Positions 8,270-62,536 of a stretch of 64,000 nucleotides of DNA are shown piece after piece. The notes beneath the pieces are model-generated. The model saw only the letters and a program-made list of their open reading frames with translations. It was not told the origin of the DNA and searched no databases. Each line of letters begins with the position of its first letter. The stretch's first letter is position 1. The stretch spans positions 8,370,001 to 8,434,000 of the forward strand of contig NC_079884.1 of the NCBI RefSeq assembly GCF_029227915.1, written 5' to 3'. The DNA comes from Hydractinia symbiolongicarpus. Its lineage: Eukaryota; Cnidaria; Hydrozoa; Anthoathecata; Hydractiniidae. The position numbers and the translations under genes are program-made.

Positions 8270-11200
8270 TCAACATTCTTCACCACAAATGTAACCAGTG
8301 AAAAAGTCCACCATCTTGTTTTCAAATTTTTTCTTCTGGCTTTGTGTTTTCAATTCTGCTTTTTGTAGACGTGTCAACTGTTTTTTCTTTTTCTTCAATT
8401 TAGATTTCTTATGAGCTTTATGTTTTTCGACAAGTTTCTCTTCCAGTTCAATACCTCCTGATTTATCTCCCAAAATCATGACTTCAGCCATTCCCTTCAT
8501 CGCTTTGCTAAATCCGTTCACATCCGTCTCAAGATCTTTCAACTCACCTAATATTTCAGATTTTTCCTTGTCATCACTTTGAGCCTGTTTGTGTTTCTCT
8601 GCAATTTTTGATCGTCGGTTGATTTGATAGTTCATACCCGTGTTTTCTATTCGGTTGTCATATGAGTTATACATGCCGTAACGGTATCCGTTTGGTTGTT
8701 GTGGATAGTCAATGCCGTAGTTTCGGTAATTAAAGTTGTATTGATCAGGCTGAGGATATATGACACCTCTACGCGAAAGATCTTGTTCAGAACGATACGA
8801 TGGATAGAGCTCTCGCCTTCCTACAAAAAAGATGGAGTTTGATTTTACTACTTTTGCTTTAATGTACCTGTGTAAATAAATCTAAATGTTAGTTGATGCA
8901 CAAGAATAATCAAAAGAACAACAGTTCTAGTTCAGATGTCACAATTTAGTAGAATTTTATGTTGTGTAGCTAAAAGAGACAACTTGCGGAATTATTTTTG
9001 CAGAAATCACTTTTGCGCCTTGATAGCCCTAAAATGCTTTATTTTGCGGAATATATTTTTGTAGAAAAGAACATTGTCCCGAAATATTTTAAGTCGTTGA
9101 AAGGATCAGGTAATTTTAGCAGAAAAAACATCAAAATTTTGCTTCTTATAATAGGAAATTGAAGTGCAAAGAGAATTTTGCCGTGAAATTTTTTGAAGAT
9201 AAAAAAATGAAATTTTTTCCAAGAGACTGATTTTTAAAATGCTTGCCGGCAATGTATCGCAAATATTTTTTTCCCCTAAAGGCATAAATATAGCTATACT
9301 TTAATGCCAGAATTTTCGCGATTTTTTTTAGATTTTACGAAAATTTATTTTCGGTGATATAAATTATAATATGATATGAATTCTCTTTGAAGGACAATGT
9401 AAAAAGTACTTTTTTTAACTTTAAAAATTTACTTTCCATGTGAATTGTTGCATCGGCACCAATTTTAACTACTTTCTCATTTAATCTAGTGTACCCTGAA
9501 TCGAAATATATTTTATGATTTGGGCATTCTCTATACCCTTTAACTAAGCTAGATTGACCATGGGTTACATAGTTCGTGTGCTAAGCCCTCTAGAAACCCT
9601 TTTCCTACCGAGTATCACTGCGAATTACGAAATACTTCACATTCAGCTTCAGGTGTTTTTTTTTCTCAGTAGAATTGGTTTCGCAAAGCACCCAATGAAT
9701 TTTTTGCGAGAAATTATTTTCGCGATAAGGAAACAAAATTTTTTTCGTGTAAATTTAATTTTGCGAATGAGATGTGAATTCCTGCAAAATTATTCCTGTT
9801 TACTTGTTAAAATTTTGCCATTCAAAGTTCGTTACTAAAGTAGCTAAAAGAGCCCTACAGAAGTGATTGAAAAATAAAACGAAATTATGGTGGGATAAAT
9901 TAAAGGGAACCCGAGGTATAAAATGATGACTTATATTATAGAGCTTAAACAGTTGGTTAACAAGTCTTTTTACATTTTTTAAAAAGCTCTTTTCGTTCTC
10001 AGATATACAAATTTAAAGACCTTATGATGTTCAAGTAATAGAAAATTGGACATTTTCTGTCATTAGTAAGTTTAGACCTGTTAAGGGATTTGCATCCAAA
10101 CTTTTTCAATGCATAGATAATATAAAGGTGAATTGATTAACATAATTTTTTTTTTGCCAAAATAACACTAGTTTTCTGGTCTCAGATCTCTTAGTTTTTT
10201 CCAAATAACGCAATACCTTGAGACGGGTTTGCGAAAATAATTTTTCAGGGTAAGCTTGTAAATATATATTTACTCACAAAATTTGATTGCAAACTAACAT
10301 GCAGATTCTAAGTTATTATGGGATCATCAGCAAAAAGTGAGAGGTCTGGGACGAGCAAACGAGTGTCAAGATGTTAAGCCAAATTTTCACATCAGACGTT
10401 TATACATTATAAAACCTAAAGTGCGAAAAGAAACACCTCGCACTTCGCATATTTATTTCCCCTCACACAAGCAACTTTAGGCTGAAAGTAGACTGAAGAA
10501 AAGAATCAAAAACTATGCTACATATCATTGCGGAGATTGTGCAGTTGTAGCGCTGAAACTCAAATCTGAATTAGAATCTCCGCTCCAGCGAATTCTATAT
10601 GTAGTGTTGTCTAGCTCATTTAGAACTTTATACTGAGCGCCAATTGGCTTGTGTTACAGATAAGAGATACGTATAGCATCTCTCTGACATTGCTAACGGG
10701 TAATGTAAAATAGTTAGTGTCAGAAATGTTAGGATGGTATTCCCAAGAAAGTTAAAAAATTAAGTTACTTACATAAAGATAATAAACTGAATAAATCAAA
10801 CATACAGGCTTTTCCTTGAAATTTCCTATTTTCACCCCCACCTTTTAATAAGTTGTAAAACCCCCCAACCTCCAACCCATTTATTAGTATTTCCCATTTG
10901 TTCCGAACGCTGGAGTATATTCATCGTTCACTCTATAGCATATCACGTGATTCATGGGGTAGTTAATTTGGGTGTCAATTCGTGTCTTTCTGCGGTTTGT
11001 TTACTATTTCTACACAAAGAAAACAAATACGGTTTAACAATTGTGATTTTTACAGAATTAAAATTATGACAATAATCGTGTCAATGATCTTTAAGGTGGG
11101 TTTCCATTAAAACTCATATTTGTTGCACAAATGTCGTGAGGAAATCTATCTCTATTTGTTGTGCGACGTCTTTTGTGTCGCTTTGTTGCACAATATATGT

Positions 11201-13207
11201 TTCCATTAGTTTCATGACGGCGACTACTGTACAAAAGTTGTTTATAATTTTTACGTTAATGAAAACCGACCTTTACCAACTACATGCTGGTTCCGTAATT
11301 TATTCACCTTTTATTTGATACAAATAAACCAATCGCGTTGAATCTTTGTTTATGTTGCGTACATGTTGCGTGCTAAGATAGCTAAGCATTTAGTAGTATA
11401 AACATTGAAGTTTACTGCGTGACAGCAGATAAATGTATGTGTTCATTATAAAATAACGTTAAAAAATGTCTTCTTTATCAAAATTCAGAAAGCGCGCTTT
11501 TAACAATCGTCTCCACACACATAGTTGGTGAAATAATTCACCAATTTATTTTCCAATCTCTCCTTACTGTCAAGAGTTCGTTTAAAAGCTTCGATTAATT
11601 CTGCGGACGATTTTTGTTTTCTTTTTATAAGATCTTTCTTGTCTCCAACCACATCAGTTTTGTCTTCGTGTATCTTCTCTTCAAGATCTGAACTGCCATC
11701 GTTGTTGTCTGTGATAAAAGCCTGCTTCATATACTGTATGGCTTGATTGAACCCATTCACATCATTCTCCAAATCAATCAGACCTTGTGATATACCGGTT
11801 GCAGTGCTAGTATCCGGGACAGGTGTGTGTTTAGTATGTATTTGCGCATGAGGGACCGGGTTATCCGTACTCTGTTTAGCAGCATTGATTGCTGCGAATT
11901 CAGCTGGATAGTGGTACTGGTATGCCGACTGGCGTGGATGCTGTTGTGGCCCATAGTAAATATTGTTGTTGTAAGCGTACGGCATAAAGGTGCGCTTTGC
12001 TACGTCATACTGTGGCGTGTACATGTTTCCATAGTAGGGATATGCATAGCTGTTGTAGTAGGGATAGCCTCCATAACCATACATGGATGCAGTTGTATAC
12101 CCAGGGTATTGGTAGTTGTAAGCATTGTAATAATAACTTGGTGTGGAAGGCAGAACAGCTGCAGATGATACTCCTGGAAAGGCATTGGGCGTAGTGGGTA
12201 ACCCAACACCGGTGATTTTTCCAAATTCTGTAGCTGTGGTTGTCGTTGGCAAGCCTACACCTGGTAGTTTGTTTACATTGTTGCGTTTTACCATTCTACG
12301 CGTGTCCTGGAAGCCTATTTGAGAAGCCGATGGGAGAAATGTTTTGATGAATTCTCTTGCTGCAGATATAGCTCCTCTTGAAGTCTTCTTAACCAAACTT
12401 TCAAGACTTCTTGGAACACGTAGTTGCTCGTGCTCATAATAACCTTCAAAAAAGAGCGTATCGTTTTTTAGAGTGTTCATTATCGGTGGTGTGTATTAAG
12501 CGTGTTTTGTCGTATTATTCGTAAGCGTGCAAATACATTCAGTCAAGACGACGGATCTATGTAATGACGTTTGTTTGTTGTTAAAAAGGTCAGTCAATGT
12601 AATTTGCAGTAATGTACAAAGTCGGTAATGCAATGAGTTCTCATAACAGTGTGTGTTTATTTCATTGTGTACGTATGTATGTATATGTGCGCAAACAAGA
12701 TCGGTAGCAACATCAACATCAACAACAGCATGTAAACAACAACAACAACAATACATCTTTCATTTCTAGTGGTTTTCTCTTTCGGCAGAGAGTTTGATGA
12801 AACACTATGCAAAACATCTTAATGTTCACCGCAGGCATAACAAATCTTTTTCACTTCAAGTCAATAAATATGAGAAATGGTTAGTTCAGTTAAGCCGATA
12901 TTAAGGAATTTAAAAAAATGCCCTCAGGTATGTCTTCTCAAATAGTTAGCCTACGTAAGGTAAGCAAGATAACTTGTCTTAACTTTTGTTTATTATACTA
13001 GCTAGGTATAAAATGTGCTTTTAAAGTGTGCATAAAAAGTTTAGGCAGGGTGAAACACTACGTTCTGTTTCGTTGTAGACATCTAAACGCATACTTAATC
13101 ATGCGTGCAAAAAAGTTTGCATAATTACCTTCATCGTCTTCGACAAACACAGGGTGTCCATATATTAAAACAACTCCGCAAAGGAGTAACAATACCCTCC
13201 AAAGCAT
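8270..13207 (-). CDS. Unrecognised secreted Tyr/Lys-rich protein, form B (distal 3' exon)
   Basis: I do not recognise this family. The terminal exon 8270-8820 follows a TTTTTTGTAG acceptor and begins in phase 1. The only compatible start exon I found is 13129-13207, which ends in phase 1 at a GTAATT donor. The joined protein has a signal peptide (MLWRVLLLLCGVVLIYG), an acidic HPVFVEDDE stretch, an Arg/Tyr-rich segment (RRELYPSYRSEQ, YNFNYRNYG), a block LKDLETDVNGFSKAM, a very basic Lys run (KKSKLKKKKK) and the C terminus FENKMVDFFTGYICGEEC. The last block repeats in the paralogous exon at 11500-12443. The intron would be 4.3 kb. A separate, unseen first exon for this copy is the main alternative. 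Dibasic sites are present but no peptide-amidation pattern. Secretion is inferred. Confidence 0.5.
8960..9860. repeat. Dispersed TTTCGC/GCGAAA-rich interspersed repeat
   Basis: This stretch is built from words such as TTTTGCGGAATATATTTTTG, CCTAAAATGCTTTATTTTGC and AATTTTCGCGATT. A recognisably similar copy lies at about 34220-34330, and looser ones near 13930-14210, 34720-35040 and 36030-36130. It is non-coding and lies between the two 3' exons of the secreted-protein locus. Element ends could not be defined. Confidence 0.45.
9861..11499. other. Non-coding DNA between the paralogous 3' exons
   Basis: AT-rich sequence without a supportable exon. I checked the minus strand for a start exon with a signal peptide and a phase-1 donor that could serve the downstream 8270-8820 exon. 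The only ATG-plus-GTAAGT candidate (about 10770-10802) would create a stop at the junction, so it was discarded. Confidence 0.5.
11500..13207 (-). CDS. Unrecognised secreted Tyr-rich protein, form A (proximal 3' exon)
   Basis: Exon 1 is 13129-13207 (signal peptide MLWRVLLLLCGVVLIYG then HPVFVEDDE). Exon 2 is 11500-12443 after a CTCTTTTTTGAAG acceptor, which restores phase and reads GYYEHEQLRVPRSLESL; the product is about 340 residues. It contains a basic segment (RRMVKRNN), two GVGLPTT repeats, a Tyr/Gly/Pro-rich centre (YYYNAYNYQYPGY, YGYGGYPYYNSYAYPYYG), then LIDLENDVNGFNQAIQYM and the C terminus LENKLVNYFTNYVCGDDC, shared with form B. Tyr-rich secreted proteins often form cross-linked coats or matrices, but no such role is shown here. 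The open frame also extends upstream to an ATG at 12480, so an unspliced form lacking the signal peptide is possible. Confidence 0.6.
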
Positions 13208-14293
13208 ATTCCTCCTACTTCATGTATATCTTTTCGCGCAAATTATTTCGATTTTTTCCAACTTTTAATCAAAGTCGTAACCTTGCTATCTTGTCGTATT
13301 CAAATTGAATACGCACCCTTCATGGCTGAATAAACTCAAGTAACGCTTCAATGATTTTAGAAAGATACGAGTGCCATTTAAAGAGGCAAACGACCTCGTA
13401 ATTAACAGCCGCAACTGCGAAGGTAAATTCTTCAAAACAGCTGGAAAATGCCGAAACACACATAAATATATACTCTTGAACATGTCTTAAGAGAGCGTTT
13501 TAATTGTTTTGATGATAAACAAGACAAGGCGAATATACGTTTTTACGCTTTCTGTTACTTTTCGCCGCGTTTTAAATTTAGCAAAAGTAAAGTCAACCCA
13601 CGCGTGTTTGTTTTTGCAACCAGTAGAACGCTAAAAACATCGTAAATATTTTTATCGTAAATATTTACGGCGATGAAAATTGCGTTTTGCCTGAAAGAAT
13701 GTTTCATGCAGAACGCAAACACACTTTCCGAACCGCAACTCTAAATAATTTACGAAAGCCCGGCAGAAAACAGACAATAGATAGCGATTTAAACGCCTCT
13801 TTTATCCAGACAAAACTTTATGCAACGAAAATTTAGTTCAAATTGAATTTTAAAAGCAAGCGAAGATGTTGTGGCTGTGTAACTGCGTAAAGAAGAAAAG
13901 TTTAAATTATTAACGCAAGTGGTTTTTACTGCTGTCAAGAAATAAATTTTTGCGGAACTAATTTGCGATCAAAAGAATACGGAACTTACTTTCGCGATTC
14001 GTTTACTCTCATTAGGAAAAATGCGGATCTAAATTTTTTATTTTTAATATTTCCCTAGGAGAGTGACAAGAAAAAAGTGTTTCACTCTTTAATTTATAAT
14101 GAAATTTTGGGATTGATTTTGCGAAAAGGGAACAAAACCACATAAATATTTTTTTCGTAATTTCTTCCTGCAAACCAATTTCTTCTGTAAGGTAAATTCT
14201 GCTCAATAAAAAAATAATCTGTCGACTCCGACTCCTTGAAATAGAAATTGGTTAGTTTGATTTGGACAAATGATATAAAGAGAAAACGTTAAG
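13208..14293. other. Upstream region of the secreted-protein locus
   Basis: No gene recognised. It should include the promoter of the exon starting at 13207. A degenerate copy of the TTTCGC-rich dispersed repeat lies at about 13930-14210. Confidence 0.45.
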
Positions 14294-15922
14294 AATACAC
14301 CTTTCCCGAATTTATATTTTGTAAAATATTGCGTGCATGAAAACGAGGCAAATCTTGGTAAACATTATTCGCGTTCATATAAACATGGAGGAAGACAATA
14401 CTATGAGAGATATTTTGCTTAAAATAATTGAGGAAAATATAGATTTAGTCTTCGATGAAACTGAAGAAAAAGCGTGAGGGAAAACATGGAGGGAATGCCA
14501 CCGTTCACGATAAAAGAAATTGAAATGCATCGACAAAATAGTGGTAAACAGCACGGTGTGGCAATTATTAAGACTTTGGAGCGTGACAGAAAGTTTAGGG
14601 ACTATACTAGAACTATACATATCTGCTGATAGCATTTTCACATCAACAACTACATTTGCTCCAAGTAAAAACAGAATTTTTTTAAAGACTTAGTTATGGT
14701 CAGCCCTGTAAAAAGTAATGCTGACAAAAAGGTATCCATCTAACGTTATATGATCCTAGAATTAATGATAGTTTGTGTAATATAAATCCAAGAATATTAA
14801 AACTGCAAGAAGATATGCTTATGGTTGACAAACGGGTTGGTTTTGCTCATTGTATTCACAGTACACGAAAAAGAAAAAACAACATTAAATATGCGAACTT
14901 TCTTGTTCGATGTACATAGTCACACCAACTACTACCGTTAGAACATACCATCAAGATTGTTACTAATATTGTTACTAATATTAATATATCAAATACTTCA
15001 AATAAATCAAAACATAACGAAACACAACCCTATGAGTTTATTGATGTAAATCCTGTATTAATCCCAAAAGATTGGGGTAAATTAAATCAGCATTACACAC
15101 CTAGCTGTTCAGTAAAGTCGTTTATAGTATCATCAATTAGTTTTTCTTTTAACATTGAATTCCTCAGTTTTGTTAGTTTCTAATTCATCAGGAGTGAAAA
15201 AACAGGTTGTTCTTTAGTGATCTCAGCAGAATCAGATGAAGAACTTTTATATGTGCTTTCAGAATCTGTTTTGACTACTACAGGAAGTGCTCTTTTTTCG
15301 GACTTCTCCTTTTTTGTGTTGTATTATTTTGTTTGAACGTAAATATATATGGCACAGAGCCATTGATTAATGTTTTTCGTTCACAACCAAAACCTAATTT
15401 TACACAGTGTACTTCAAGGTGGACTTCGCATACTTTTGTGTTCTTGTTTACTGTGAACACATCACACCTTCCCTTCTACGATATCTTGAAATGATGCTTA
15501 CCCATTGTTTTCTCAAACTTGGATCCGATGGAAATGAAAACATTCCAATGCCTGTTTAACTCTGGGTTTATTAAGAGTAGAACTTTTGCATAACAGTACG
15601 CAACAAGAGTTACCAGGTCGAGAGGTTGATATACTTGGATAGATTAATGATAAATTTCTTGCTGACCTTTCTGATTGCTACTCGCCATCACAAATACATA
15701 TTCTTCTTTTACAAGACAAGTATGTTTTCAAATACATTCTAAGTGGTTTCGTTAAGAAAAACCTGCAATCCTTTAGAAAAATACACAATAAAAGATCATT
15801 CACAACGCATAAAAGTATCACACTCAGCAGCTGTATTTTTAGTGTTTACAAAGTTTACTAAGAAGTGCCTCGTTTTCATGCCGATGATGTAATCGATAAT
15901 TTAAATTCGGGAAAGGTGTATT
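14294..15922. mobile_element. 1.6-kb TIR transposon remnant with THAP-domain transposase
   Basis: Termini are long imperfect inverted repeats. AATACACCTTTCCCGAATTTA starts at 14294 and its inverse ends at 15922; further inward both share ATGAAAACGAGGCA (ends near 14350 and 15866), giving TIRs of about 57 bp. The interior carries a broken THAP-type zinc finger on the minus strand. THAP fingers are found in P-element-like transposases, but assignment needs a full transposase. No clear target duplication. Confidence 0.65.
15318..15535 (-). pseudogene. THAP zinc-finger fragment of a transposase
   Basis: Reading the minus strand from about 15535, one frame gives FPSDPSLRKQWVSIISRYRR, matching the THAP pattern FPxDxxxRxxW. 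After a frameshift another frame gives KVCEVHLE (the CxxH half of the C2CH zinc site) and then GSVPYIF (the AVPxIF motif). Order and spacing fit a THAP domain. It is frameshifted, so not functional. Confidence 0.6.
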
Positions 15923-16321
15923 ATTTAAGTGACGTATAAAAATTTGATTGGTTAGTGTGCTCACAGGTAACGAAGAAAAAACTGTTCAAATATCTTAGAA
16001 TATCTTCAAAGCAAGCAGAATTACAAGGTTATATAACTATCGGTTGTTAGCAGCTTGACGTGATTTCAAGCCACTTTTTCATAGAAAAATGAAATTTCAC
16101 AAAATTCATTTCAGTTTTGCATAACAATAAGTAGCATGTACACGGCAAGCATAAAGTACCGATGACGAAGAGCTTTTGATATACATAAAAATATTTAAAA
16201 TTAAGAGCTACCACTTAATGATCTTTATAAAGGACATCTAAAAATTGTCGTTGAGAGGATCGTCTTTAAGGGAATTGATCAGTTCTATCTTTATACTAAA
16301 TAGAAAATTAATTTGATTAGT
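15923..16321. other. SNRNP70 3' flank
   Basis: AT-rich sequence between the THAP element and the SNRNP70 stop codon. It should hold the SNRNP70 3' UTR and poly(A) site on the minus strand. Nothing else seen. Confidence 0.4.
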
Positions 16322-19300
16322 TTAATCACTGTGGACTGCAGCTTCGTATCCGTTACTGTCATCATATCGATTTTGTTTGGAACTCTCATATTCCTGTTTT
16401 ACGTATTTCTTTTCATCTTCTTCTTCTTCTTCTCCGTTTTGAACATATTCATCGTTTCTTATCTCGCCATCTTCTTCCCGTCCTGAACGGTAATCATCCC
16501 GGTTTCTTTCACGATCGCGATCACGGTCGCGCTCACGTTCTTTTCTGTCACGATCGCGCTCACGGTCGCGCTCACGATCACGATCAGTATCTCTGTCGCC
16601 GCGGTCTTTTTTTTCACGCTCGCGTTCACTGTCACGCTCCTCACGGTCACGACCACGACGCTCTCTTCGATCACGGTCGCCATCTCGTTCGTCTCTTTCG
16701 CGACGTCTTCTTTCACGGTCTCTGAAATACATGAAGTAGATAATACTAGGAAGTGTTGTTCAAGCAATAGAACTCGATAAACTTGAAGAAAGAAACTTTT
16801 TGATATCGTAAACCAAATTGGTATAAGGAAACACAAGTTAATTTTTTGTATTACCGGTCTCGGTCACCTCTTGGCGAACGACTTCTTCTCCTTTCGCGTC
16901 TTTCTTCTCGATCACGATCTCCACGATCACTGCGTTCGCGTTCACGGTCTCCACGATCGCGATTGCGGCTGCTACAAAATAGTTAAGGTTATGCAATTAG
17001 ATAAGAGAAAAATGCGCTTTTCTTAGAATTAATTAAAATTAAATTAAAATTAAAAAAATGTTGTAACAGGTTGTTTGTTTAATGTATGAATATTAATAAT
17101 TCACGATTTATTTCATTCATTTTCCTTAAAAAAGTTGAGAAAGAGCTGCGACACGTCAAAGAAAATAAATTTGGGAAAGGCTTATTTAATATTTCTTTTT
17201 TCTAACTTATTCTTAACATATCCTTACAATCTGGCGTATAAAACCATTTGGAACTTTGTACAAAGTTGCAAGTCGTGTCGTAAAGTTACTTTAAGGCGTA
17301 ACGTTACATGCATCCAAAAGAAGAGCTAGGTATTCGAATGGTAAACTTATTTAAAAAATGTGTTAGACCAACAAAGCAATCATAATCTTCCTCCCAAACG
17401 TACTACACATGTTCAATTCAGCACTCTGGATGTTTATTTAAAGAATCGTGTTTCAAGGGGGTGCTTTTTCTAAAAGAACGTTTAATCGCTCTCTTTTAGG
17501 CAAGCCCGATACAAACAATGGGTACAAAGTAACAATGCATTGACTTTAGGCGAGACAAAAGACCCCGACCTATGGATATCAATATGTGCTCGATAAGTCA
17601 AGCACTTTGAGAGTGTGGGATTTCTAGTTGATCAAATCAAACAATGAAATATTTACCCTTCCCAGTTCTCCACACGACCAGAATGTTTGATGTTCTCGCT
17701 CTCCCCACCTCGGCGCGTTCCACCAAGACCACCCCCTAAGATTAAATATGCGTCAGTTAGTTTCTCCGTATTCTCACAAAAATGTGGGACAAATCAATGC
17801 TTATACAATCAGCGGCATGTTAGAAAGTGCGACTACTGTATTCTCAACGCTGTTTAACATACACATATGTAGAAGTTACACTTTTGCAGCCTCCCAACAG
17901 CAGAGCATTGGCGACTTGATGGTTTTTGCTAATTTTTAAAATGTTTAAAAAAACTGCCGTTGTGCCAATTTTTTTGTTATCAATTGTAGATCCACGTTAA
18001 CAGTTCGACACGTTATTTAAACATAAGGCCTCGTTTTCAGAAAAAGGCGTTGACAATACAACAGATTGGATGAAAGTAAACTACATACATCGAGTGAAAA
18101 AATCCTCCACTTTGAAAATTGTAGAGTACCCACCTAATCTTCTAGGTCTCCAACTTTTCACAGTACGTCCTCTCTCAACATCAACAACTATTCGTTTGTT
18201 ATCGATTCTTTTACCATCTATATGTTTATACGCAGCTAAAATACAAAACATGTAGGGGTTTCAAAAAAAAGAGTTTAACTTTCACATTGGCACCTAAAAA
18301 AGAATTGGGATTAGTAAAACGATGAATTTTGGGATTAGCTATGCCGTTGAAGTTTCGCATATACTTCACCCAAGAAGACAAGAAGTATCAAAATAACGGT
18401 CTACCTTTTTGTCGCGCTCAGTAGTGGATGGGGTTGATTCCGTTTGAGGAGGATGCCAAAAAACAGAACCAAGATGAACGGACAGTCATATTAATAATTT
18501 GTTCTTTTAGGTGTTTTATTTGCTATATATTCTATTTAATTAATTAACCACCATTGGCAATTTAAAAGACGTGTGATTCAGCATATTACTTACAATCATA
18601 ACTCTACCTTGGTACCGTTTCTAACCAACCAATGAAGCAAAATTAAAGCCATTATATGCTTCCTGGACCAGCAACAATACCATTTAGAGTTTTTAGCTCA
18701 ATTAGTTATATTAACTTACAAGCTTGTTGTTTTTTACGTACTTACAGCTAGCCTGGAAACTCTACTTACTAACATTTAGAATGGTGAATAAAAATAGTCA
18801 CATTAGCAAGGCTACTTACAAGTCAACTTATTGTCAGGTTTCGTATCAACAAACTTAGAACCGAAAGTTACCAACTAATATATCTGGCTGTTTCCTCAGA
18901 TGCTTTAAGGAATAGGAACTTAGCTGTTCGACCAGGAATGAAAGTTTGATTCCATTTTTTATTGGTTTATCAACAAAAAATTAAAATAATTATTAAACTG
19001 TTCCACAGAATACGAACAATGAAGCTGTATTATCAAATTCTTATTCTTTGACTAAAATCTCTTAAATATTCCATTTTGTCAGGTGTTTTGGAAATTGGAT
19101 TACTTTAAAAACTGTGAATATAATAACAAGCTTATCAGTAGAACAGTTTGTAAAAAGTTAATTCAAAATTGATTCTTACTAATATTTTGAATATTAAAAA
19201 TAGTTCTGACTGACCATTCCCACATGAAATTTCTAACGTTTACCTGACAAAGAAATCGCTAGTTTTCCTGACATTTTTACAATATTAAAAAATTCCTGTT

Positions 19301-22300
19301 TATGACAATTATGTGTCCATTCTTTATTTCATTTCATGCCTGACAAATGTACAAAACCTCTTTCAAAACCTCTTTTAAACACTTCTCACTATAGACAAAA
19401 TTGTTCAGACAAAACACAGCAGTACACTACCATGGAATACTTACAATTTTCAGATCTACTAAAACATTTCAATAGAAAGTGATTCTAAAGCATTGCCAAT
19501 AATCAAGCCTTAATCTTGAAGTCTTTTCCTGATTGTTTATGCACTTGGTGTGAACATACACAAAGTTGATCAAATCAAAAAAATTAACCATCCCATCCCT
19601 ACTTATCATTCTCTAATTGTCGAATTTCAAAAGTTACCATTTTCAAGCTTTGCATTAAGTTGTTCGAAAACATTCCTTTTTAGCTTTTTAAACCATATCA
19701 ACTTTGAGAACCTCTGTGGAAATGTGCTGAATTTTACAGAACTATTAATTTAATAACATATACTTACACAAATTAACTACTAAAGGTTTGAAAGATCTGA
19801 TTTATTTTAATGCAAAAAAACTTCATTGATTCTTAAGCATAAAACATATGTATCAAAATATTCCTGTCCTGTCTTTCCTCAAAAATTTCAAATTCAATAA
19901 TCCAAGATAACAATTTCCCAGGTAGATTTTTTTGGGAACTTTTTTTAACCATTTCGTGAAATGCCAATAAAATATTCTTGGAAATTAATTTTGGATATTT
20001 ACTTAGCGATTTATACTGGCTATATGCGATTTATATTAAAAAAGTTATTTTTGTTGGGGATAAGTTCTAAACTATTGCTTTTGTGGTTTATATTATCTCA
20101 CAAACATAAATATATGCAAATGAATCAACGAAAACAGCGTTAAAAATTGTGCAAGATAAAAATCAAAAGACTGAAATATTTTTACCTAAGAGTACCTTGG
20201 AAACGTACTTACTTTTTTAGACAAGATTGACTTGAAAACAGAAAATCGAAAAAATATCTTTGTACCTGGACTCAGTCATACTGACCTGCTTTCAAAATAT
20301 ACTTACAAATTTCACGCTTTAGTTATTTGCTGCATCAAATTTAGACTCAAGATTTTTACCTGATGTACTCGGGTCAACATTTTTACCTGACATACTTACA
20401 CTGAATTTAGATGACAAATACTACCTACCTAAGCTAAAAATACCTACCTAGTTACTTACATGACAAAAGTATTTTTTGGTGAGGAAAGAACCCAACAACT
20501 GAGATAACATACTTACATTAGTTTTTAAGCTAGGCTCAGTTAATGCTTTCATATCTCAAAATAATTTTTTTTAATTCAATTAGTATCTTGCATTTATTTG
20601 TATTTACTCATTTTTGGTTTTGACATAACAATTTATTAACAAATATTAAATTAGTGTCAGATTAAAACGAATCACTGTAAAATGTACATATATACTCTCA
20701 AAATATTTTTATTATTCTCCTTAGCGAATAGAAATAAGATTTTTTTGTTACAGACGCTCCACAATAAAAATGATTGAACACAAAAAACATTGCACTGCTG
20801 TATATTTACCACAAAACCTACCAAGCATCTTAAATTTAAAATATCCATTACCTTATTCCAGGAAAATAATGAGGCACAAATTTAACAATTACAAAGCTTA
20901 CACAAAGAAAATTAATGTGATGTCTATAACAACTTTTAAAAAAGAATAAACCTAATGCGATTTAGTTCAGTTGACTTACAAAAAACATTAAAATACGCGA
21001 AAGACGTTTACGACATCAGCTACCCTGCAAGTGAACAGTATCAGGACAATACTAATTTTTTTGTGTCAAGCAAACAAGGAGGACTAGCTATGCGTGTGAA
21101 TGAGCTTTTTATTGCGATTACTAGAAAATTAAATTCTCAAACTTTAATTACAGGTTTTAAATTATGTAGTTTTAACGTCCTGGATATTTACGTTACACTT
21201 TATTAAAATCTGCGTTCATTTTGGGCCCCTTTAATTTCCTGAAATAAGGCATTTTACATTTCATGATAAGTCACAATTATTTGCTATATGCCCATGATCT
21301 GCATCATCCACCAATATGCACCTATACAAACCAACCTTTGCTCAACTAAGTCCTAGTAACTTATGATATATCTATTTATAATCATTGCTATATGCCAGCC
21401 TAGGAATTTTGAAATTAAAAAGTTGAGAAGTTTTTGTTTTTTTGGGTGGGGGCATTAACACTGGGATTTTATGAAATAATGTTTTTAGGGTAAATAGATT
21501 CAAAGTTTCAGCCTCCTTCAAATAAGGTTATTATTCTTTCTTTAAGATCTCATCAAGAATTAACTATTATTGTTGACCCCCTCCTCCCATCACCATGAGA
21601 ACTAAGCTTATAATAAAAAAGATTTAATATTTTTAACTTATGATTCCCGCAACAGAGTAGAAAAGGTTCATACTGTTAATGAATGAAGCGTAGTATTATG
21701 TCCATGCAGGGGAGACCACCAGAAACCTTTAGGTTAAGTTTTTTTTGCTTTGTTTTGATGGAAACAGTGTTGGGTAGGTTGGGTAGGAGGTGATTTATAC
21801 CCACCAATACCCACCGTTAACACTTGCTAACAATACAATTGACATCATCGTCTGATAATACCATCATAGTGCTGGCAATATATAAATAAATAAATATAAT
21901 ATTTAGAATAAATCTTTAGTTTTTTGGAAAATAAAAAGTTCTCTTACCCATTAGTGCTTACTTTATTTTTATTTAGGAGTTAATGGGTGACCAAAAAAAT
22001 TAAACAAAACAAAGGGGACACTTACAGTGCATGTCCCGTTCATGTTCAAACTCAACAAAAGCATATCCACGTGGTTTTCTTGTATGTACATTATAAACCA
22101 GATGAATCTAAATGAAGTATGCAGCTTTAGTTACAGTTCATCTGAAAAACAAATTTGCTGCCTCAAATTTGCTGATTGTAAGAAAAACTATGTCAGTAAG
22201 AAACACACCCTTCTAACTGGTCCATAGTCTTCCATTTCACGACGTAATTTATTTTCTGAAGTGTCGTAATTCTAAAAGAGAATACATACAATCAATAAAT

Positions 22301-23382
22301 CAGTAAAACAATGAAAAAATATATAATAAAAAAAATATCACAACAAATTGCAATAACAACTTAAAAACGATATTAATAAACTCACAATTCGACCAACAAA
22401 CAATGTTTTAAATGGATCTCCTGTGGCATTTGGATCATTGTGAGGATCCCCTGGAAGAAATATACACAAAATAATAATAAATTTTCATGTCAACAAAAAA
22501 AAGTCAATTATTCAAAAGAAATTTACTTGATTAACAAACAAAACGTCTGAAATTTCCAATTTGGAATTGCTGTTTACACTAATACACAATTTTTAGGCGT
22601 AAAACAGAAAACAATTTCTGCTATTAAAAATAAAACAGTTAAAATTCCTCAGCACGTCAAAAATAAGAAATACCAAAACTCAAAGACACAAGGTATTGGG
22701 TTTACTTCTTGATTCTAAATAAATTATCAATTAGGTCTAACTAAAAAATAGAAAAAAAATCTTACATTTCAATATCTTCTCTTGTAATTCATTATCAGCA
22801 ATATCATTTTTCTCACGTTGCTAAAACAAACAATATGATTAAATTAAAATTTGAATAAAAACATACTATATAAATTCTTAAAAGATTTAAAGGAAAATTT
22901 TTACATTGTATACACTACTTTGATCCTTTCTAATGGCTGCAAGTTTGAAACAACTTCTATGCAATGTTTTCATGTAAAATTTAGAATAAGATTCATAAGA
23001 ATAAGTAAGTCTTATTTCTTTTTTTTTTCTAATTAAAATTTTGAATTCAGAGCTTGAAAATAAAAAGACTACAAAGTTACAGATAACCTTTCTTTGTTCC
23101 TTCTCTTCCCTTGTTTCACCTCTGGTTGCTGGTGGGGGTTCAGTTTTCTACCACAAAAAATATAATTTTTTTATTGATTGATTTTACAGCTACAATAATA
23201 ACAGACGGTTAACAATTGATTTCCAATACTTCACATACCTCAAATTCTGATAGAAATTCAGCTATGCCTGCTATTGGCTGAGCATTTTTTCTCCTTTTTA
23301 ATCGATCCACAGGTGGCTTGAATAGGATCGGTGGTCTGGCTGAGAATAGTGCCAAAAGATTTGGTGGTAAATACTGTGTCAT
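16322..23382 (-). CDS. SNRNP70: U1 small nuclear ribonucleoprotein 70 kDa (U1-70K)
   Basis: This is the U1 snRNP core protein that binds stem-loop I of U1 snRNA and supports 5' splice-site recognition. Exons in transcript order are 23239-23382, 23088-23147, 22766-22820, 22386-22450, 22209-22271, 22026-22107, 18134-18235, 17657-17735, 16855-16971 and 16322-16721. Phases agree throughout, giving 388 residues (human 437). The N terminus [19 protein letters not shown] and [19 protein letters not shown] match the family. The RRM (about residues 100-180) has RNP2 LFVGRI and RNP1 RGYAFVEF, then [20 protein letters not shown]. The C-terminal third is an RD/RE-rich low-complexity tail ending in an acidic EEEEEDEKK patch. 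The 22209 donor is AGG|GTGTGT, needed to keep VRRIHLVYN. Intron 6 (18236-22025) is exceptionally long and holds a 5' splice-site array. Confidence 0.96.
18588..20516 (-). promoter_or_regulatory. Array of consensus 5' splice sites in SNRNP70 intron 6
   Basis: On the transcribed (minus) strand, GTAAGT occurs at 18588, 18714, 18740, 18764, 18814, 19439, 19762, 20207, 20301, 20394, 20454 and 20511 (low coordinates), with a thirteenth at 20974. Several extend to GTAAGTAT, matching the U1 snRNA 5' end. CAG|GTAAA-type sites are interleaved at 19239, 20355 and 20382, CAGGTCAGT at 20280 and CAGGTAC at 20262. I saw no GTAAGT on the opposite strand of the intron. None borders a recognisable coding exon. 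Human SNRNP70 is known to be controlled by a cluster of regulatory 5' splice sites that bind U1 snRNP and promote a non-productive isoform; I infer the same kind of autoregulation here. Confidence 0.7.
20980..22025. other. Upstream part of SNRNP70 intron 6
   Basis: AT-rich intron sequence without a coding exon or clear repeat. If the downstream splice-site array works as in vertebrates, the matching alternative 3' splice site could lie here or at about 20520-20620; I could not pick one with confidence. Confidence 0.35.
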
Positions 23383-24380
23383 GTTTATGTATAAATATTA
23401 TTCTATAAAAACCATGAAGAAAGAAGGATGTTAAGTATATGTACATATTATGTATAAAAATACTTGTTCGATATTATGAATCTTTGACATTATCTGTTAA
23501 AATATATACTTTGGGGAGAGTATTTAAACCATGATGTTTTTTAAAAATATTGAATTTCCTTGTCAACAATAATAAAAAAATTTGAAACATAACAAATATA
23601 ATCATTCAATTCAAAAACGATGCAGTTAAAACAGGGGTCAAATTTCAGGGAAAGGCAATTTGTCTCACTTTGCACAGCACAGGGCCTGTAACTTAGAAAA
23701 AAGCACATGCACAATAAATTGCACACTCCAAGCTTTAATAATTTCATTTGTGTGAGCAATCCTAAAACACAGAAATTATGATATAATTGAAGAAACTGAA
23801 GCAATAAAATTCCTTTGCCCCTATACACATGGGTTGTACACAGGCTGCTGTTTTGGCATGGGAAACAAACGTACAAGAGCAAAAAATCACCGTAGATTTC
23901 AATTTAATCAAATCTACGAGTACGCAATTTTGCTAGTGCTACTTTTAAAGAAATTAACCTTGCGTAAATTTTTGTGACATCTGTCGAAATGAGAAAGAAA
24001 TGTCTAAAAATAGTTTTACATAATAAATTCATCACATTTCTAAATGCTTTGGCAAAACAAGTTGTTTCATAATTTGTATCAATTTTTTTTCTGTATTAGT
24101 TATAAAATAGTTTTGAAATCATTTCCCATTTGCTTCCACTTTGTATCACTTTTGAGCTTAAAAAACAGAATAAATTACAATTGTTTCTGAATCGTTTCAA
24201 ATCACTTCACATTTTGTTTCATGAAAAAATCTGTGATAGATTTTAAAAAACGATGATTTAAAATTGTATAAAATGTTAAACGATGGTGGAGACGGTCCCT
24301 ACAGAATGTTAGTAAAAAAAATGTTAAAAAAGTGAATTACAAGCAGTAGCAGAAGAATTGATGCATTTAAGCAGGAATAT
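23383..24380. other. SNRNP70 upstream region
   Basis: No gene recognised. It should contain the SNRNP70 promoter and 5' UTR. A short perfect hairpin with arms CGTAGATT and AATCTACG lies at about 23891-23920. Confidence 0.4.
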
Positions 24381-24914
24381 TAAACACCTAATTAGGCGGC
24401 ATGACCTAATTAGGCGAGTTGTTTAGTTAGGTGACGTGATGTAGTTAAATTAGGCTACTGGTAGTCTAACTAGGCCACTTTGCAGATAATTTTAACCAAT
24501 TATTGTCTTATTTGCATCGCGCATTGGTAACTTATGGTCCAAACATCGTGTGGCACTATTTGTTGTTTTAAATAATGTATTTCAGCCATTCACGCCGCAG
24601 GAAAAAAATAAATATGGCAGACGAAAACGTCACCTAAATAGGCGATACTTAACCTAATTAGTTTATATATTTCATTTTAACATAATTCTTAGTTGCGTAA
24701 ACATATCGAGGCACGAGTAACAATTTTGGAATCATGGTCGCGTAGACTATCCATTCTGAACAAAGATTTTTTGCGATTTTTTCTTAGGAATGTGTGAAAA
24801 GCCATTAAATATTGTTGTCTTTACTAGGTTATATATGGCCTAACTAGGCTACAATGAGTCGCCTAAATAGGTGGTATTCCTTAATTAGACTACCGTCGCC
24901 TAATTAAGTGTTTA
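24381..24914. mobile_element. MITE-like element rich in CCTAATTAGGCG-type motifs
   Basis: The left end TAAACACCTAATTAGGCG and the reverse complement of the right end TAAACACTTAATTAGGCG match at 17 of 18 positions. CCTAATTAGG-like words (CCTAAATAGG, GCCTAACTAGGC and similar) recur near 24405, 24435, 24455, 24470, 24630, 24645, 24835 and 24860, clustered toward both ends. A TA target duplication is possible. Non-coding. Confidence 0.6.
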
Positions 24915-25234
24915 CCCTGACTGTTTTTACAAACTTAGTCTATCTATCTAAATGTTACTATTTTACTCATAGCAAGATATAAATGCTCTAAAGAAATTAA
25001 TAATTCTCGAAAGAACAAGATGACCACCCTCATTATTCTATTTAAAACGCCATGGATGGACTGGTTCACGACTGCAGGTGATGGAAGAAAACATGTCCCT
25101 CGAATAAGTGAGGTTCTTCATGGTCTGTCCAGGCTGTCGATGCAAACGGATCGGGACGTAATAACGGAAATATTGCGATTTGATTGGTTCTTTTGCAAAT
25201 TATTCCCAGCCTGCCTCCGGCCGTAATCACGAAC

Positions 25235-25670
25235 CTCGCCCCTGTGTTAGTTATGACACCACAGTCCCCGACGATTATTGTGGTGTCAGAAATTCTTGTT
25301 CCACCGCCACCTACAGAAATGCCTCTTGAGAAGAATAGCTATTAGTACATTTATACAACTGGTTTACTTGGCGTTGTATGTGAATTAATCTACCCTACCT
25401 CTTTCGCGCTAGCCATATTGATATCAGAGAAAGCGAAAAGGAAGCCCTGGGAACGAGATCGGCCGTCCTCTCCAATATGAAAGGAGGCCCCTGACTGAGA
25501 CCAGATTGCTTGTTTCCCAAAAATTATGTCAAAGATGACAACCTCTCTCCAAGCGCTGTCGTCTCTTTTTTCTAATCGTAACGGCAAGACGGGTCGTCCA
25601 TCCAAGAACCATCTTAGCCGTTTTGGAGAAAGAGCCGTAGAACTTGCATAAAGGAGAAAAAAAAGTTGTT
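25235..25670 (-). other. Unidentified coding-like segment
   Basis: On the minus strand an open segment from about 25660 to 25395 reads in part LRWFLDGRPVLPLRLEKR, FGKQAIWSQSGASFHIGEDG and SDINMASAKE, then meets a GTAGGG donor. A TTTCTGTAG acceptor at about 25312 precedes a second open stretch (GGGTRISDTTIIVGDCG, ARFVITAGGRLGIICKR) ending near 25060. The phases across that junction do not fit, so no gene model is offered. Base composition is less AT-rich than its surroundings. It may be an unknown element or an exon pair I cannot resolve. Nothing recognised in 24915-25000. Confidence 0.3.
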
Positions 25671-25890
25671 TGCTTTAAAATTTTTGATTTCTTTCTCCCC
25701 CTGTAGTTAGTGTCGTGTTGCGGTCTAGGTCGTTTTTAAAACATATGGTGAAGGAAACAGCCTTGACCTAGGGCCTGCAATCCTCGTCTACACTCGTTTC
25801 TTGCTGATGATGTTGAGTATGTATTTATATAATTGCAGAGGATCGAAATTCATAAAAATTAACCAATCAGAAACGAGCTGATAATTACGG

Positions 25891-28261
25891 TTAATTACGG
25901 TAATTAACATTTTCAGACCTAGATGTAGGTAACTGCTTCTTCTGTACGGCTGGTAACCAAATCTCAGGAAGTTGATACGAGATGCTGTTTATGTGTTTGT
26001 TACCTTCTACACTGTTGATGGTTTCTTTAATCTTCCTGGCCGTTGTTCTGGATTCTCTGTCAATGATTTTCTTCTCATCCCAATTAAATTGATGACTTCT
26101 GCTCCAGCTGTGGTCCGCAATTTCGTTTTTCTTCAATCTCCGTTTCTCACTGCGCGCATATGTTCTTGTACTCGTTGCTTAAACTTTCTTTTTGTTTCGC
26201 CTATATACACTGCATCACAATCTTTACACGGGATTTCGTAAACAACATTGCTTTGTTCTTCCAGGTTTATTTTGTCCTTTGGTTTAGACAAAGTGCTTCT
26301 TAGGATGTCTTTAGAGTTAAGAATGCATTTGTTCTTGTGTTGCCTTAAAAATCGACGAAGGATCTCGCTGGTACCTGGTACGAAAGGTAGAAATGCTGAT
26401 GCGATAAATTCCTCTGATGTTTCATTGTTGTCTCCGTTGCATCTTCACTTCATTTTATTTTCTACTTGCGTGATGACTTTATGACTGTATCCATTTGCGA
26501 TTAATGCATTTCTTACACGTCGAATTTCTTCTTTCCTCTCCTGTTTGTCACTGACTACGCTGTTGGGACGATTCAGTAATGAAGATATGACACTTTCTTT
26601 GCAAGATTTCTGATGGTTTGATTCAAAGTTAAGGTACTGGTCAGTGTGTGTTGGTTTACGATACACTGAAACTGAAATGGAACCATTCTTGCGTTTGACC
26701 AAAGTGTCCAGGAAAGCGATACTTCCATCGTATTCAAGCTCAACAGTGAATTTGATTTGTCGATGTAGGCCGTTGATGTGTTCATGGAACTCTTCAAGAT
26801 GAGATCTTTTGATTATGGCGAATACTTCGTCAACAAATCTTTTCAAAACCTTTGGACGTCTGTCTGATGTGACTAATGCTGTTGTCTCGTGTGCTTGCAT
26901 GTATATTTCTGCGACTACTGATGATGCAGAGCCTCCCATGGCAACTCCGTCTTTTTGAGTGTAGAAGTTCTTATTAAACAGATACCATGTTTTGGTTATA
27001 ACAAGTTCGACCAAACGCAGAAAAAATCTGGTACTGGAACCTTCGTCTTTTCACCGAATGCAGCATCGTTTTCGATAAGGTCTTTATTGATGTTTAAGGT
27101 GTCTTTTATGGGAACATTTGTGTAAAGTGATGTGACATCAAATGATACCATGCATTCGTCGTCTGCTATCTTTATTTTTCTGATGTATTCCGAAAATTCT
27201 TTCGAGTTTTTGCTGTGGTCACCTGCTGTAAATTTGCTGAGGATAGAAGCAACAAATTTTGATAGGTTGTATAACGGTGTTCCAGTGCAAGAGAATATTG
27301 GTCGAATTGGATTTCTCTGTTTATGAATTTTTGGTAGTCCGTAAAATCGCGGTGGTGGTCCGTCACAAGGTTTCAGTCGGTAATACTGCTTATCGTCGAT
27401 GTATTTTTTTCTCTTAACCTCCATTAAGATGTTCCTCGCTTCTCGTTTGATGACTTCTGTAGGATCTTTCTTGAGAAGTTTGTAAGGCCCGTTGTTGATG
27501 TGTTCGTTGCACTTGTTGATGTAGTCAGGTGTATTCATTATAACCGTTGTTCTCCCCTTGTCTGCCGGTAGGATTATGATATCTTTGTCCTTCTTTAGAT
27601 TCTTCAATGACAGTCTTTCAGATTTTTGCAAATTGTCCTTTGGTGTTTTGCTTTTCTGTAGCGTGAGGCTTACTTTAGCTCTTAATGTGTCTGCCTCTTC
27701 TTTTGGTAGATCTTTAATTGCCTCTTCCACTTTCGCAACTATTTCTTTCTTTGGAATTGAAGCTTGTGTCATACAGAAATTCATGCCTTTTGATAGAAGG
27801 TTTGTTTCTTCTGTTGTGAGTTGTCTGTTGGAGAGATTGACAATCCATTTGCTCTTTTCTATACCCGTTTGTGTATCATCATTGAATCTGTCATTGATTT
27901 TGTTGAACTTTTTAAGGTGTCTGTCTTTAACCGGTCTCATTTCTTTTTCATACACGCTATCATGAATTTTCTCTGCAGGTAAGTCGAAGATCTACAGATG
28001 TTATTTTGTTGTGAACGTAGAGAAAACCGAAGATGAGTGTCGTGCATATTTTATTCTTGATTTCTCTAGTGATCGGACTTCTGCCAAGATGGTTTCTCCA
28101 TATTGCTGTTTGATATTATTGAAAATATTATTTTGGTTTGTCTGTTCAGTATTCATATTACTTACTTTAAGCTTCCTGGTTATATTATTTACCATCAAGT
28201 TACACCTGGTTTCCACACCTTTTCTTGTACTTGATTGCGTCTTTATTATTATAACCCCCAT
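25891..28261 (-). pseudogene. Penelope-like retroelement, decayed (RT plus GIY-YIG)
   Basis: Minus-strand frames together give a Penelope-type protein. A basic N-terminal region (28261-28001) is broken by stops near 28000. The reverse transcriptase follows with ADKGRTTVIM, YGLPKIHKQRNPIRPI, VSFDVTSLYTNVPI (27955-26996), a frameshift near 27005, then QKDGVAMGGSASSVVAEIYM, RFVDEVFAI and SIAFLDTLV. A C-terminal GIY-YIG endonuclease has VVYEIPCKDCDAVYIGET (about 26190-26250), with a further frameshift near 26135. The catalytic box reads FVDE where YVDD is usual, so the polymerase would be impaired. No terminal repeats were delimited. Confidence 0.85.
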
Positions 28262-32034: not shown

Positions 32035-32556
32035 CATAAGCTGTAAAAATTTTTTTAAACCAGAGCTAATTATAAGCTACATTATGTTGTAACAAGCGTG
32101 AGTTCTTTTGAGAGAATAACATGTTTTAAAAAATTCTTATTTTGCCAGATAGCCTATAACCATTTCACCAAGCTTTCTTCTAGGATAATAAAAGTTTAAG
32201 CAAATGCAAAGGTGTCAAAATCCAAATTCAAAACAATCAATAAACGCAATGTCAGTGAAGCCACATCTCACCATCAAGTAAGGAATAATGAACAAAGCAA
32301 AACTATATAAAAAAATTGCTTGCAATGGTTTTAAAAATAATTTTTTTTTTAAAGTAATTTAAAATATATTGTTCTGCAAGAAATAATGACAGTCTACAGT
32401 AACTGGTCTTGTCCAATTCTTATCGGTTTCAAGTGCTGTGTTGGTTTATGAGTTCTCTTAAACATTCATGCTAAGGCTTCTGTGTCCAGAATTCATAGAT
32501 CTGTTTGTTTATTTTATGTTGTTTAGTTAAACTTAACTCCTTGTGTTTAGAAAAAA
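32035..32556. other. SLC39A7 upstream region
   Basis: AT-rich DNA directly upstream of the SLC39A7 start. No upstream exon, TATA box or other element could be assigned with confidence. Confidence 0.4.
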
Positions 32557-39192: not shown

Positions 39193-39729
<537 letters not shown>

Positions 39730-49019: not shown

Positions 49020-49177
49020 TGGCTTTGCTATTTTAAAAATGCTATTGACATCTAATGCCTTGCATACATTGTTCCATTAAGTCAGCTCTTGGCAAAACAC
49101 ATTTGAATGGTTTGTTTTATGCTGTAACTGTTAGAATTACTTTAAACTTTTTTTTATTTGAGGTGTGTATAAAAGAT

Positions 49178-61100: not shown

Positions 61101-62536
61101 TGTGTTTCTACCCGAACGAGTTTTTTTTAGCTTATTTTGCTATTATATATTCTCGCAAATGATCAGACTTGGAATTAAAAAAAATCCACAACGAAAGTTT
61201 GGATACGATCTTTCATATCTAAATTCTTGTTGTTGAAATTTTGGTTGGTCAACTTTTTTTATAGTTTTTTTCACAATATGTAACTTATATAACACCAATA
61301 AAACCTATGGTTCCAAATGTACCATTTGTGATTTGAAAGTAGATGAAAATTTATCGATTGCTTCTAACCGTTTTGTTGTACTCTGCTTTAAACATCATGG
61401 GTTATTCACGTGCTTTGGTTTTCTCGTATCTAGGTAAAAGACATGTGGAGAGGCAGTATGAACACAGCAGACGAAGAAAAAGCCAAACAAGCCCGCATCA
61501 TTGATGATTACAAAAAAGTAAGCTTCCTCATAGACACGCGTGTGATGTTTTATATCTTAACAGGATTTATTGGTTGCGACATCAACTTTCGCGAATTTCA
61601 CGACATGGTTGTTTTCTCGAAGTTAAATTTCTGCGAAAACTTTGCTAAGATCCCACTATTTACAAAGTTTGTGAAAATTAACCCCTAACTCGTGTATATT
61701 TTGAATTTATCAGACAAATATCTGCCAAAAAGATTTGTTTCGTTATCCAATTCTCTATGATTTTCAAAAATTAGGCTCTGTGGAATAACGAAAAAGTTCA
61801 TGCCCGTTAAGGTAGCTAATAGGATGCGGTAGCGATTTAGTGAATGTGATTGAAACGTTGACGTTCGTTTGGGGTGTGGCAAGTGAAATTGTGGTTTAGG
61901 TAAAACAATGTGCAAGATAGATCTTTTGTGGATACAGCAATTTAAATTTCATTATTTCACTTACAAATTCTTCTTCTAGATTTTAACCAGGTTGGAAGCA
62001 AGAAATGAGAAATTTAAGAAGGATATGGAGGCAGATTTGGATATACTAAAAGTAAGTCTTGTTGTTATTTTTGCTGATGGTGAACACATCTTATTAGAAT
62101 GTCCATATTTTTGACCACTGGGCAACTTAGTTCAAAATTTGAGAGGGTTAAACGTTTTCTTGGAACTAGAAATGCTCAACTCACCAAAAATATGTAATTT
62201 TTTCTTTGAATATTGATGTATACACGTTTTCATTTGTCTTTGTAGCGACAGATTTATAGCTGCGAAAGTTGCACAGCTGCCCTAGTGAAGGGTCTGTATA
62301 AAAACGATCAGACCAACGATGAAGCTTCACCGCAAAAGAACTCACTCTCCTCCTTATTGATTAAAGATGATACCGAAGAACAATTAAGAAACTTAGAAGC
62401 TGAACTTATACAAACCAAAGTTGCTCTTGCGGAGGAGAAAAACAGAGGTGATGAAATCGAAATGAGGTTACATCAATACGCGGCTGCTGCTGAGAAACCA
62501 TGGTACAAAAAAGTAGCGATCAACAGTAAGCGCTGA
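49178..62536 (+). CDS. RABGAP1: Rab GTPase-activating protein 1 (GAPCenA/TBC1D11 type)
   Basis: This is a TBC-domain GAP for Rab GTPases; the mammalian protein acts at the Golgi/centrosome and in endosomal traffic. Twenty-one coding exons: 49178-49930, 50122-50172, 50464-50684, 51892-51958, 52039-52138, 52226-52392, 54404-54590, 55114-55277, 55365-55463, 55800-55913, 56031-56105, 56326-56451, 57892-58035, 59313-59354, 59617-59745, 59885-59977, 60325-60435, 60927-61031, 61434-61517, 61980-62051, 62246-62536. They join in frame to 1064 residues (human 1069). An acidic N terminus precedes a PTB domain (about 138-290, LFHNITYLGSS) and a middle region with RCFGLLLAQGKDV. The acidic EEEEDEEPLLSGSGS leads to the TBC domain (571-790), with Arg finger R617 in WDVTRTFPAH and Gln finger Q654 in VGYCQG. 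A coiled coil runs from about 814 to 1050. The ATG at 49178 follows a likely 5' UTR acceptor (ATTTGAG). The vertebrate RABGAP1/RABGAP1L split probably postdates this gene. Confidence 0.96.
51560..51625 (+). mobile_element. tRNA-like SINE head in RABGAP1 intron
   Basis: An A-box-like TAGTGTAGTGG at 51562 and a B-box-like GATCGAATCC at 51606, at tRNA-like spacing, lie in RABGAP1 intron 3. No cloverleaf with a proper anticodon arm forms, so this is a tRNA-derived SINE fragment or chance. Body and tail were not delimited. Confidence 0.4.
52393..54403. other. RABGAP1 intron 6 (2 kb)
   Basis: AT-rich intron with no exon seen. Vertebrate RABGAP1 has about 30 extra residues at this junction (after the LKLKQIKQRE-like segment), so a small phase-0 exon could be hidden here, but I found no matching sequence. 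Confidence 0.4.
56452..57891. other. RABGAP1 intron 12
   Basis: AT-rich intron, no repeat or exon recognised. Introns 13 (58036-59312), 17 (60436-60926) and others are likewise featureless. Confidence 0.4.

Follow-up and report, generated by a model that had tools for sequence, protein, structure and literature searches.

Near position +643, the 3,162-nt intron 7 of the human U1-70K (SNRNP70) gene contains an alternative 3' splice site and, behind it, cryptic 5' splice sites, two of which are weak; three of these sites (A to C) lie close together and one (D) lies further away. Binding of U1 small nuclear ribonucleoprotein (snRNP) activates the alternative 3' site, and the product, which has an early stop, is then broken down; when U1C is lost, splicing shifts back (PMC3798272). 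According to work quoted in the same paper, neighboring 5' splice sites inhibit splicing when they are bound simultaneously. A survey reports that the splice sites that make the C-terminal alternative last exon of U1-70K show conservation among vertebrates, which does not extend to the other animals surveyed (PMC8211703). Here we describe the U1-70K gene in a 64,000-nt stretch of the genome of the hydrozoan Hydractinia symbiolongicarpus (contig NC_079884.1, positions 8,370,001 to 8,434,000), termed the window. The longest intron of this gene, termed the array intron, carries a dense array of unused 5' splice site motifs. The initial annotation of this region recounted the human mechanism in agreement with PMC3798272 and proposed that U1 snRNP measures itself on this intron as well.

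The gene model covers coding exons only, and 5' and 3' untranslated exons were not sought. Its elements, in window coordinates, are as follows.

16322..23382, minus strand: U1-70K (SNRNP70) gene, from an open spliced frame, structure alignment and Pfam.
23382-23239, 23147-23088, 22820-22766, 22450-22386, 22271-22209, 22107-22026, 18235-18134, 17735-17657, 16971-16855 and 16721-16322, minus strand: U1-70K coding exons.
18236..22025, minus strand: array intron, 3,790 nt, phase 1, inside RRM codons (DMH-S/AYKH), from the gene model and the alignment to 3cw1.

The ten modelled coding exons, separated by GT/AG introns throughout, give an open frame of 388 codons encoding 388 amino acids. The protein matches the Pfam families U1snRNP70_N (PF12220) and RRM_1 (PF00076). 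When an 88-amino-acid stretch around the array intron is compared with the PDB, the best three matches all bear the name U1-70K, with E values of 4e-40 and weaker; the best of them is the human chain of 3cw1 (E 4e-40), and the yeast homolog matches with E 1e-12. The sequence DMHSAYKH reads across the array-intron point in the U1-70K chain of 3cw1. These matches bear out the assignment of the host gene in the initial annotation. Comparison of the first 201 residues with viral contigs and with bacterial and archaeal genome contigs gives 2 and 30 pattern matches, respectively, none of which is confirmed. The array intron is by far the longest of the gene, the other eight introns summing to 2,104 nt. 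It is probably the same intron as human intron 7, as judged from the human exon numbering 1-10, the conserved splice site in the RRM region and the exon count of the Hydractinia gene. Reading on into the array intron adds eight residues before a stop, so that the protein would be cut within the RRM. This early stop weighs little, because stops are frequent in AT-rich sequence.

Twelve unused GTAAGT hexamers are located on the minus strand at 18588-18593, 18714-18719, 18740-18745, 18764-18769, 18814-18819, 19439-19444, 19762-19767, 20207-20212, 20301-20306, 20394-20399, 20454-20459 and 20511-20516, and a thirteenth is located upstream of them in the gene direction. They fall, together with a second class of motif (AGGTA), into the following features.

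20974..20979, minus strand: thirteenth GTAAGT, followed by CA, upstream of the core cluster in the gene direction (motif count).
20176..20525, minus strand: core cluster, 350 nt, with five GTAAGTA and nine AGGTA at seven separate places, none of them antisense (motif counts).
20352..20389, minus strand: two CAGGTAAAAAT sites of the exon-half class (motif search).
19437-19444 and 19760-19767, minus strand: two solitary sites between the clusters, GTAAGTAT (motif search).
18588..18819, minus strand: second cluster, five GTAAGT in 232 nt (motif counts).

The initial annotation had placed twelve hexamers on the SNRNP70 sense strand at 18588..20516 and a thirteenth at 20974, and all of them are found there. 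The array extends over 1.9 kb, or 2.4 kb with the thirteenth site. In the ten-exon coding model none of these sites is used by an exon, in agreement with the annotation. The true 5' splice site of the array intron is also GTAAGT (22020-22025, minus strand). The antisense strand of the array intron contains no GTAAGT, and the plus strand contains none from 10072 to 23004. The interleaved CAG-type sites are likewise present, as CAGGTAAAA twice (20362 and 20389) and, once each in the region, CAGGTCAGT (20288) and CAGGTAC (20268). At three TCAGGTAA sites of the array intron (19240-19247, 20356-20363 and 20383-20390, minus strand), a CAG that resembles an acceptor is directly followed by a GTAA that resembles a donor, the arrangement of ratchet points in recursive splicing.

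The array intron contains 14 GTAAGT including the true donor, while 0.76 is expected from the rest of the window (Poisson P 1e-13), which accords with the earlier estimate of less than one by chance. In 300 dinucleotide shuffles of the array intron, the mean is 1.78 and the maximum is 7; this is the least favorable null, because the shuffles inherit the motif's own dinucleotides from the array intron. GTAAGT, GTAAGTA and TGTAAGTA (9 found, 0.08 expected) are the first-ranked 6-mer, 7-mer and 8-mer, respectively, of the sense strand, in a ranking for which the array intron was drawn 4 nt too long. GTRAGT is not enriched in the whole 64 kb (58 found, 58.4 expected), indicating that the array represents local clustering. 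The other eight introns of the gene contain neither GTAAGT nor AGGTA, but this control is small, because only about 0.4 and 1.7, respectively, are expected in their 2,104 nt. The plus strand from 49049 to 64000, which by eye consists mostly of introns of a RABGAP1-like gene, contains six GTAAGT over some 15 kb, counting true donors. The plus-strand stretch 49941-56610, which contains no GTAAGT, was dropped as a control, because its ends had been set between two known GTAAGT and the zero arises by construction; AGGTA occurs 11 times in this stretch (5.5 expected).

The second class of motif is prominent in the core cluster, the limits of which were drawn by eye after the sites had been seen. 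Nine AGGTA are found in the core (0.29 expected, P 3e-11) and none is found antisense; two pairs overlap as AGGTAGGTA, so that the nine copies occupy seven places. None of them overlaps with a GTAAGT site. When GTAAGT is masked, AGGTA is the first of the 201 distinct 5-mers of the core (9 found, 0.23 expected, P 5e-12). The second cluster contains one AGGTA (18609), which is outside the six top 5-mers listed there, and the whole array intron contains 13 on the sense strand and one on the antisense strand, with 3.15 expected. When GTAAGT and AGGTA are counted together on both strands of the window, the densest 350-nt stretch is 20187-20536 with 14 sites, followed by 18593-18942 with six, and the next contains four. 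The AGGTA class as such and the two-cluster layout go beyond the initial annotation, as do the lack of G at −1 and of the joined form AGGTAAG, which are described below.

The two classes complement different halves of the 5' end of U1 small nuclear RNA: GTAAGTA complements nucleotides 2-8, and AGGTA complements nucleotides 6-10. Complementarity to U1 in two different ways suggests that U1 is the ligand. Position +7 is A in 11 of the 13 array sites (P 2.8e-4), which extends the pairing with U1 past the hexamer; it is A in 5 of the 25 other GTAAGT of the window. GTGAGT is normally a good 5' splice site too, but matches U1 less well. It is absent from the array intron, while the rest of the window contains 24 GTAAGT and 20 GTGAGT; the ratio of 13 to 0 has a P value of about 4e-4 by simple arithmetic, for a contrast that was picked after looking. 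The joined form AGGTAAG is also absent from the array intron and occurs seven times elsewhere in the window (both strands); this absence counts only beside the plenty of both halves, because just 0.22 is expected. U1 duplexes with an energy of −7 kcal/mol or better number 23 on the sense strand and five on the antisense strand of the array intron, while 28 control windows of array-intron length, taken on both strands outside the array intron, have a mean of 5.07 and a maximum of 10. The duplex energies of the 13 array sites range from −5.4 to −8.3 (median −7.1), and those of the nine true donors range from −4.1 to −11.2 (median −5.6). The bases at −1 and +7 and the lack of GTGAGT suggest, as far as sequence can tell, that the sites of the first class have in common their fit to U1 nucleotides 1-8, to a greater degree than their quality as splice donors. 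An exact ATATCCTT, the core of the U12-type 5' splice site, occurs on neither strand from 17226 to 45687, and hence the array intron contains no tandem of such sites.

Similarity among the flanks of the 13 array sites does not exceed that of random stretches (0.285 and 0.288, respectively), suggesting that each site arose separately. Within the window, blastn (E 0.01) finds only the self match, and Tandem Repeats Finder, run on 14000-27000, gives three rows, all at 14956-17054 and none in the array intron. These three results speak against an origin of the array as repeat copies. Rfam gives no match in the whole window at gathering scores.

From the array, its strand bias, its complementarity to U1, its position in the gene and the intronic stop, we infer U1 binding, alternative isoforms and feedback, and consider that the array intron is probably a U1 snRNP sensor that exerts negative feedback on U1-70K. 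The array sites, which by computed complementarity pair with the 5' end of U1, would be filled many at once when intact U1 snRNP is plentiful. On a rough split, the feedback may be exerted by poison splicing, which we propose tentatively, or by retention, which is possible but rather unlikely. By the former route, bound U1 would activate a nearby upstream 3' splice site through exon definition, giving an early-stop mRNA that is destroyed. By the latter route, bound U1 would stall the long intron in a dead-end complex, and the RNA would be kept and degraded in the nucleus. Either route would lower the level of U1-70K. When intact U1 is scarce, the sites would be empty and exon 22107-22026 would be joined productively to exon 18235-18134. 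Unused 5' splice site motifs inhibit RNA export and promote decay (PMC4380460), and the nuclear retention of RNAs with such motifs involves or depends on U1-70K (PMC11629677). In view of these precedents, the product of a U1-70K transcript with at least 13 U1 sites would act directly on that transcript. When U1 binds in an intron shortly after a donor, it can help to define the exon (PMC5933811); a pro-splicing role of this kind was considered and rejected, as the first GTAAGT after the true donor lies at +1047 of the array intron.

Several results weigh against the sensor. No alternative 3' splice site stands out in the array intron. With a weight matrix built from the nine acceptors of the U1-70K gene and generic metazoan priors, 11 acceptors score at least 6 on the sense strand and 13 on the antisense strand, and two and five, respectively, score at least 8. 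The best sense acceptor (18293, score 10.8) is located downstream of the whole array, where it could not be defined by U1 as in human. Because no acceptor set beats the antisense strand and the best one is located downstream of the array, no firm choice is made between poison splicing and retention. In addition, the array is spread over 1.9 kb, and over 2.4 kb if the thirteenth site is counted, whereas the distance from the 3' splice site to site C in human is about 40 or 85 nt, as derived from PMC3798272, which gives 139 and 184 nt in the same RNA. Position −1 of the array sites is T in 11 of 13 (P 4e-4), A in two and never G, which is atypical of good splice donors. T at −1 is shared by three of the nine true donors in the gene. 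The accessibility of the sites in predicted structures is average (P 0.45). The P values of the core are optimistic, because its limits were set after the sites had been seen. The U1-like signal of the whole array intron, core included, is weak once GTAAGT is masked: runs of at least 5 number 37, compared with a mean of 27.0 (standard deviation (sd) 4.9, maximum 41) in shuffles, runs of at least 6 number 10 (6.9, sd 2.7), and runs of at least 7 number three (1.5, sd 1.3). This weak residual signal indicates that the AGGTA class belongs essentially to the core. Of the self-measuring array proposed by the initial annotation, what holds is an array that is real, strand-biased, lacking from the other eight introns and complementary to U1 in two ways; a clear alternative 3' splice site to go with it is not found.

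The neatest option for a poison exon ends at the thirteenth site and is, on sequence grounds, a weak candidate.

20980..21024, minus strand: weak candidate poison exon of 45 nt, with acceptor TTCACTTGCAG before 21024 (acceptor score 6.7), donor at 20979 and an in-frame stop after one codon.

The acceptor at 18293 (minus strand) precedes the true acceptor of exon 18235-18134 by 58 nt and may itself be an alternative 3' splice site.

A more specific form of the sensor is conceivable, though on balance improbable. In this form, the array would be a counting device. Its elements mainly match a single half of the U1 5' end, either GUAAGUA or AGGUA and never the joined AGGUAAG, so that none of them alone would make a good donor, and only intact, U1C-stabilized U1 snRNP above a threshold would fill enough sites together to switch the transcript off. 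Such a digital U1 meter would have an origin of its own in the Hydractinia lineage, separate from that of the small cluster of vertebrates.

Among the rival explanations, the one that survives best is telescripting, in which U1 held on this long intron would prevent the transcript from being cleaved and polyadenylated too early, and no feedback would be involved. Bound U1 is known to suppress sites of this kind, and 11 AATAAA are found on the sense strand of the array intron. However, nine are found on the antisense strand, and this near equality means that nothing marks the array intron as needing protection. The RABGAP1-like introns on the plus strand (49049-64000, by eye) contain just six GTAAGT in about 15 kb, and the occurrence of the array in the U1-70K gene in particular is left unexplained. 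None of these arguments is strong; we judge telescripting to be quite unlikely as the explanation of the array. Still less likely is a ligand other than U1, either a protein that recognizes UGUAAGUA in RNA or a factor that binds DNA. The rank of TGTAAGTA as the top 8-mer (9 found, 0.08 expected) and the T at −1 (11 of 13, P 4e-4), which pairing with U1 does not explain, would fit such a ligand, but the total strand bias speaks against a DNA-binding factor, and a single protein motif cannot explain the core AGGTA, which shares the U1 complement with GTAAGT. Recursive or multi-step splicing, in which some CAG-GTAA sites are ratchet points and GTAAGT sites are intermediate donors that aid removal of the intron, is highly improbable. 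Three of the six TCAGGTA of the window (both strands) are located on the sense strand of the array intron and none on its antisense strand, and two of the three top acceptors of the intron are such sites (19243, score 8.4, and 20386, score 7.8); this model accounts for a few AG-GT sites, but not for thirteen GTAAGT, and an intron of 3.8 kb rarely needs recursive splicing. Functionless accumulation by chance or neutral processes is hardly credible, given P values of about 1e-13 for GTAAGT in the intron and 3e-11 for AGGTA in the core (limits drawn after looking), and, for neutral repeat expansion, unrelated flanks and no repeat match.

If the array intron is indeed a U1 snRNP sensor, self-measurement by U1 snRNP extends beyond vertebrates, and it would become possible to test whether the loop has an ancient origin or evolved several times. 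An array of this size would also be a natural system for asking how many U1 sites divert a transcript.

Other features of the window are as follows. Two open frames on the minus strand, 8273-8881 and 11503-12495, have a C-terminal domain in common (36% identity over 116 amino acids, E 8e-21), end in CGEEC and CGDDC, respectively, and carry N-terminal parts rich in Y, P and G. Neither matches Pfam at E 0.001, and they are possibly a tandem pair of lineage-specific genes. By eye, open frames at 26136-27991 (minus strand) resemble a Penelope-type reverse transcriptase with a GIY-YIG end, and those at 45801-48338 (plus strand) resemble a LINE-type non-LTR retrotransposon, with an endonuclease followed by a reverse transcriptase. 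Exons of a ZIP zinc transporter (Pfam PF02535) with a long His-rich part are located at 32551-34203 (plus strand), and those of the RABGAP1-like gene, as recognized by eye, at 49049-62533 (plus strand), with a Pfam PID domain in 49049-49990. A TA dinucleotide repeat of about 530 bases, which reads YIYI in several frames, is located at about 39195-39724.

Among the papers listed in searches of the open-access literature, outside which most subscription journals lie, none deals with an array of this kind in the U1-70K gene of a non-vertebrate. The size of the array and its half-site design, which appear in no paper found there, are probably new, while the circuit itself is known in kind. In SR protein genes of animals and fungi, splicing factors limit themselves by non-productive isoforms, some very old and others independent (PMC4379411, a paper in which the term U1-70K does not occur); these genes encode SR proteins, whereas the trigger proposed for Hydractinia is base pairing of a small nuclear RNA. 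Retention of the sixth intron of Arabidopsis U1-70K would truncate the protein, as retention of the array intron would, but the excerpt of PMC545797 describes no array of U1 sites. In the USSE elements of U11-48K and U11/U12-65K, unused 5' splice sites arranged in tandem allow an snRNP to sense itself on the pre-mRNA that encodes one of its proteins; those sites are of the U12 type and are read by U11, whereas the Hydractinia sites match U1 (PMC5473595). Vertebrate SNRNP70 intron 7 with exon 7a and the array intron belong to the same gene. Both have clustered cryptic 5' splice sites in the sense orientation, the U1 sites of each vary in strength, and entry into either intron brings an early stop. 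Compared with human intron 7, the Hydractinia intron shows no marked 3' splice site and has its first GTAAGT at +1047; it carries thirteen GTAAGT and nine core AGGTA (13 AGGTA in the whole intron) in two clusters, with the pairing to U1 split into two half-site classes.

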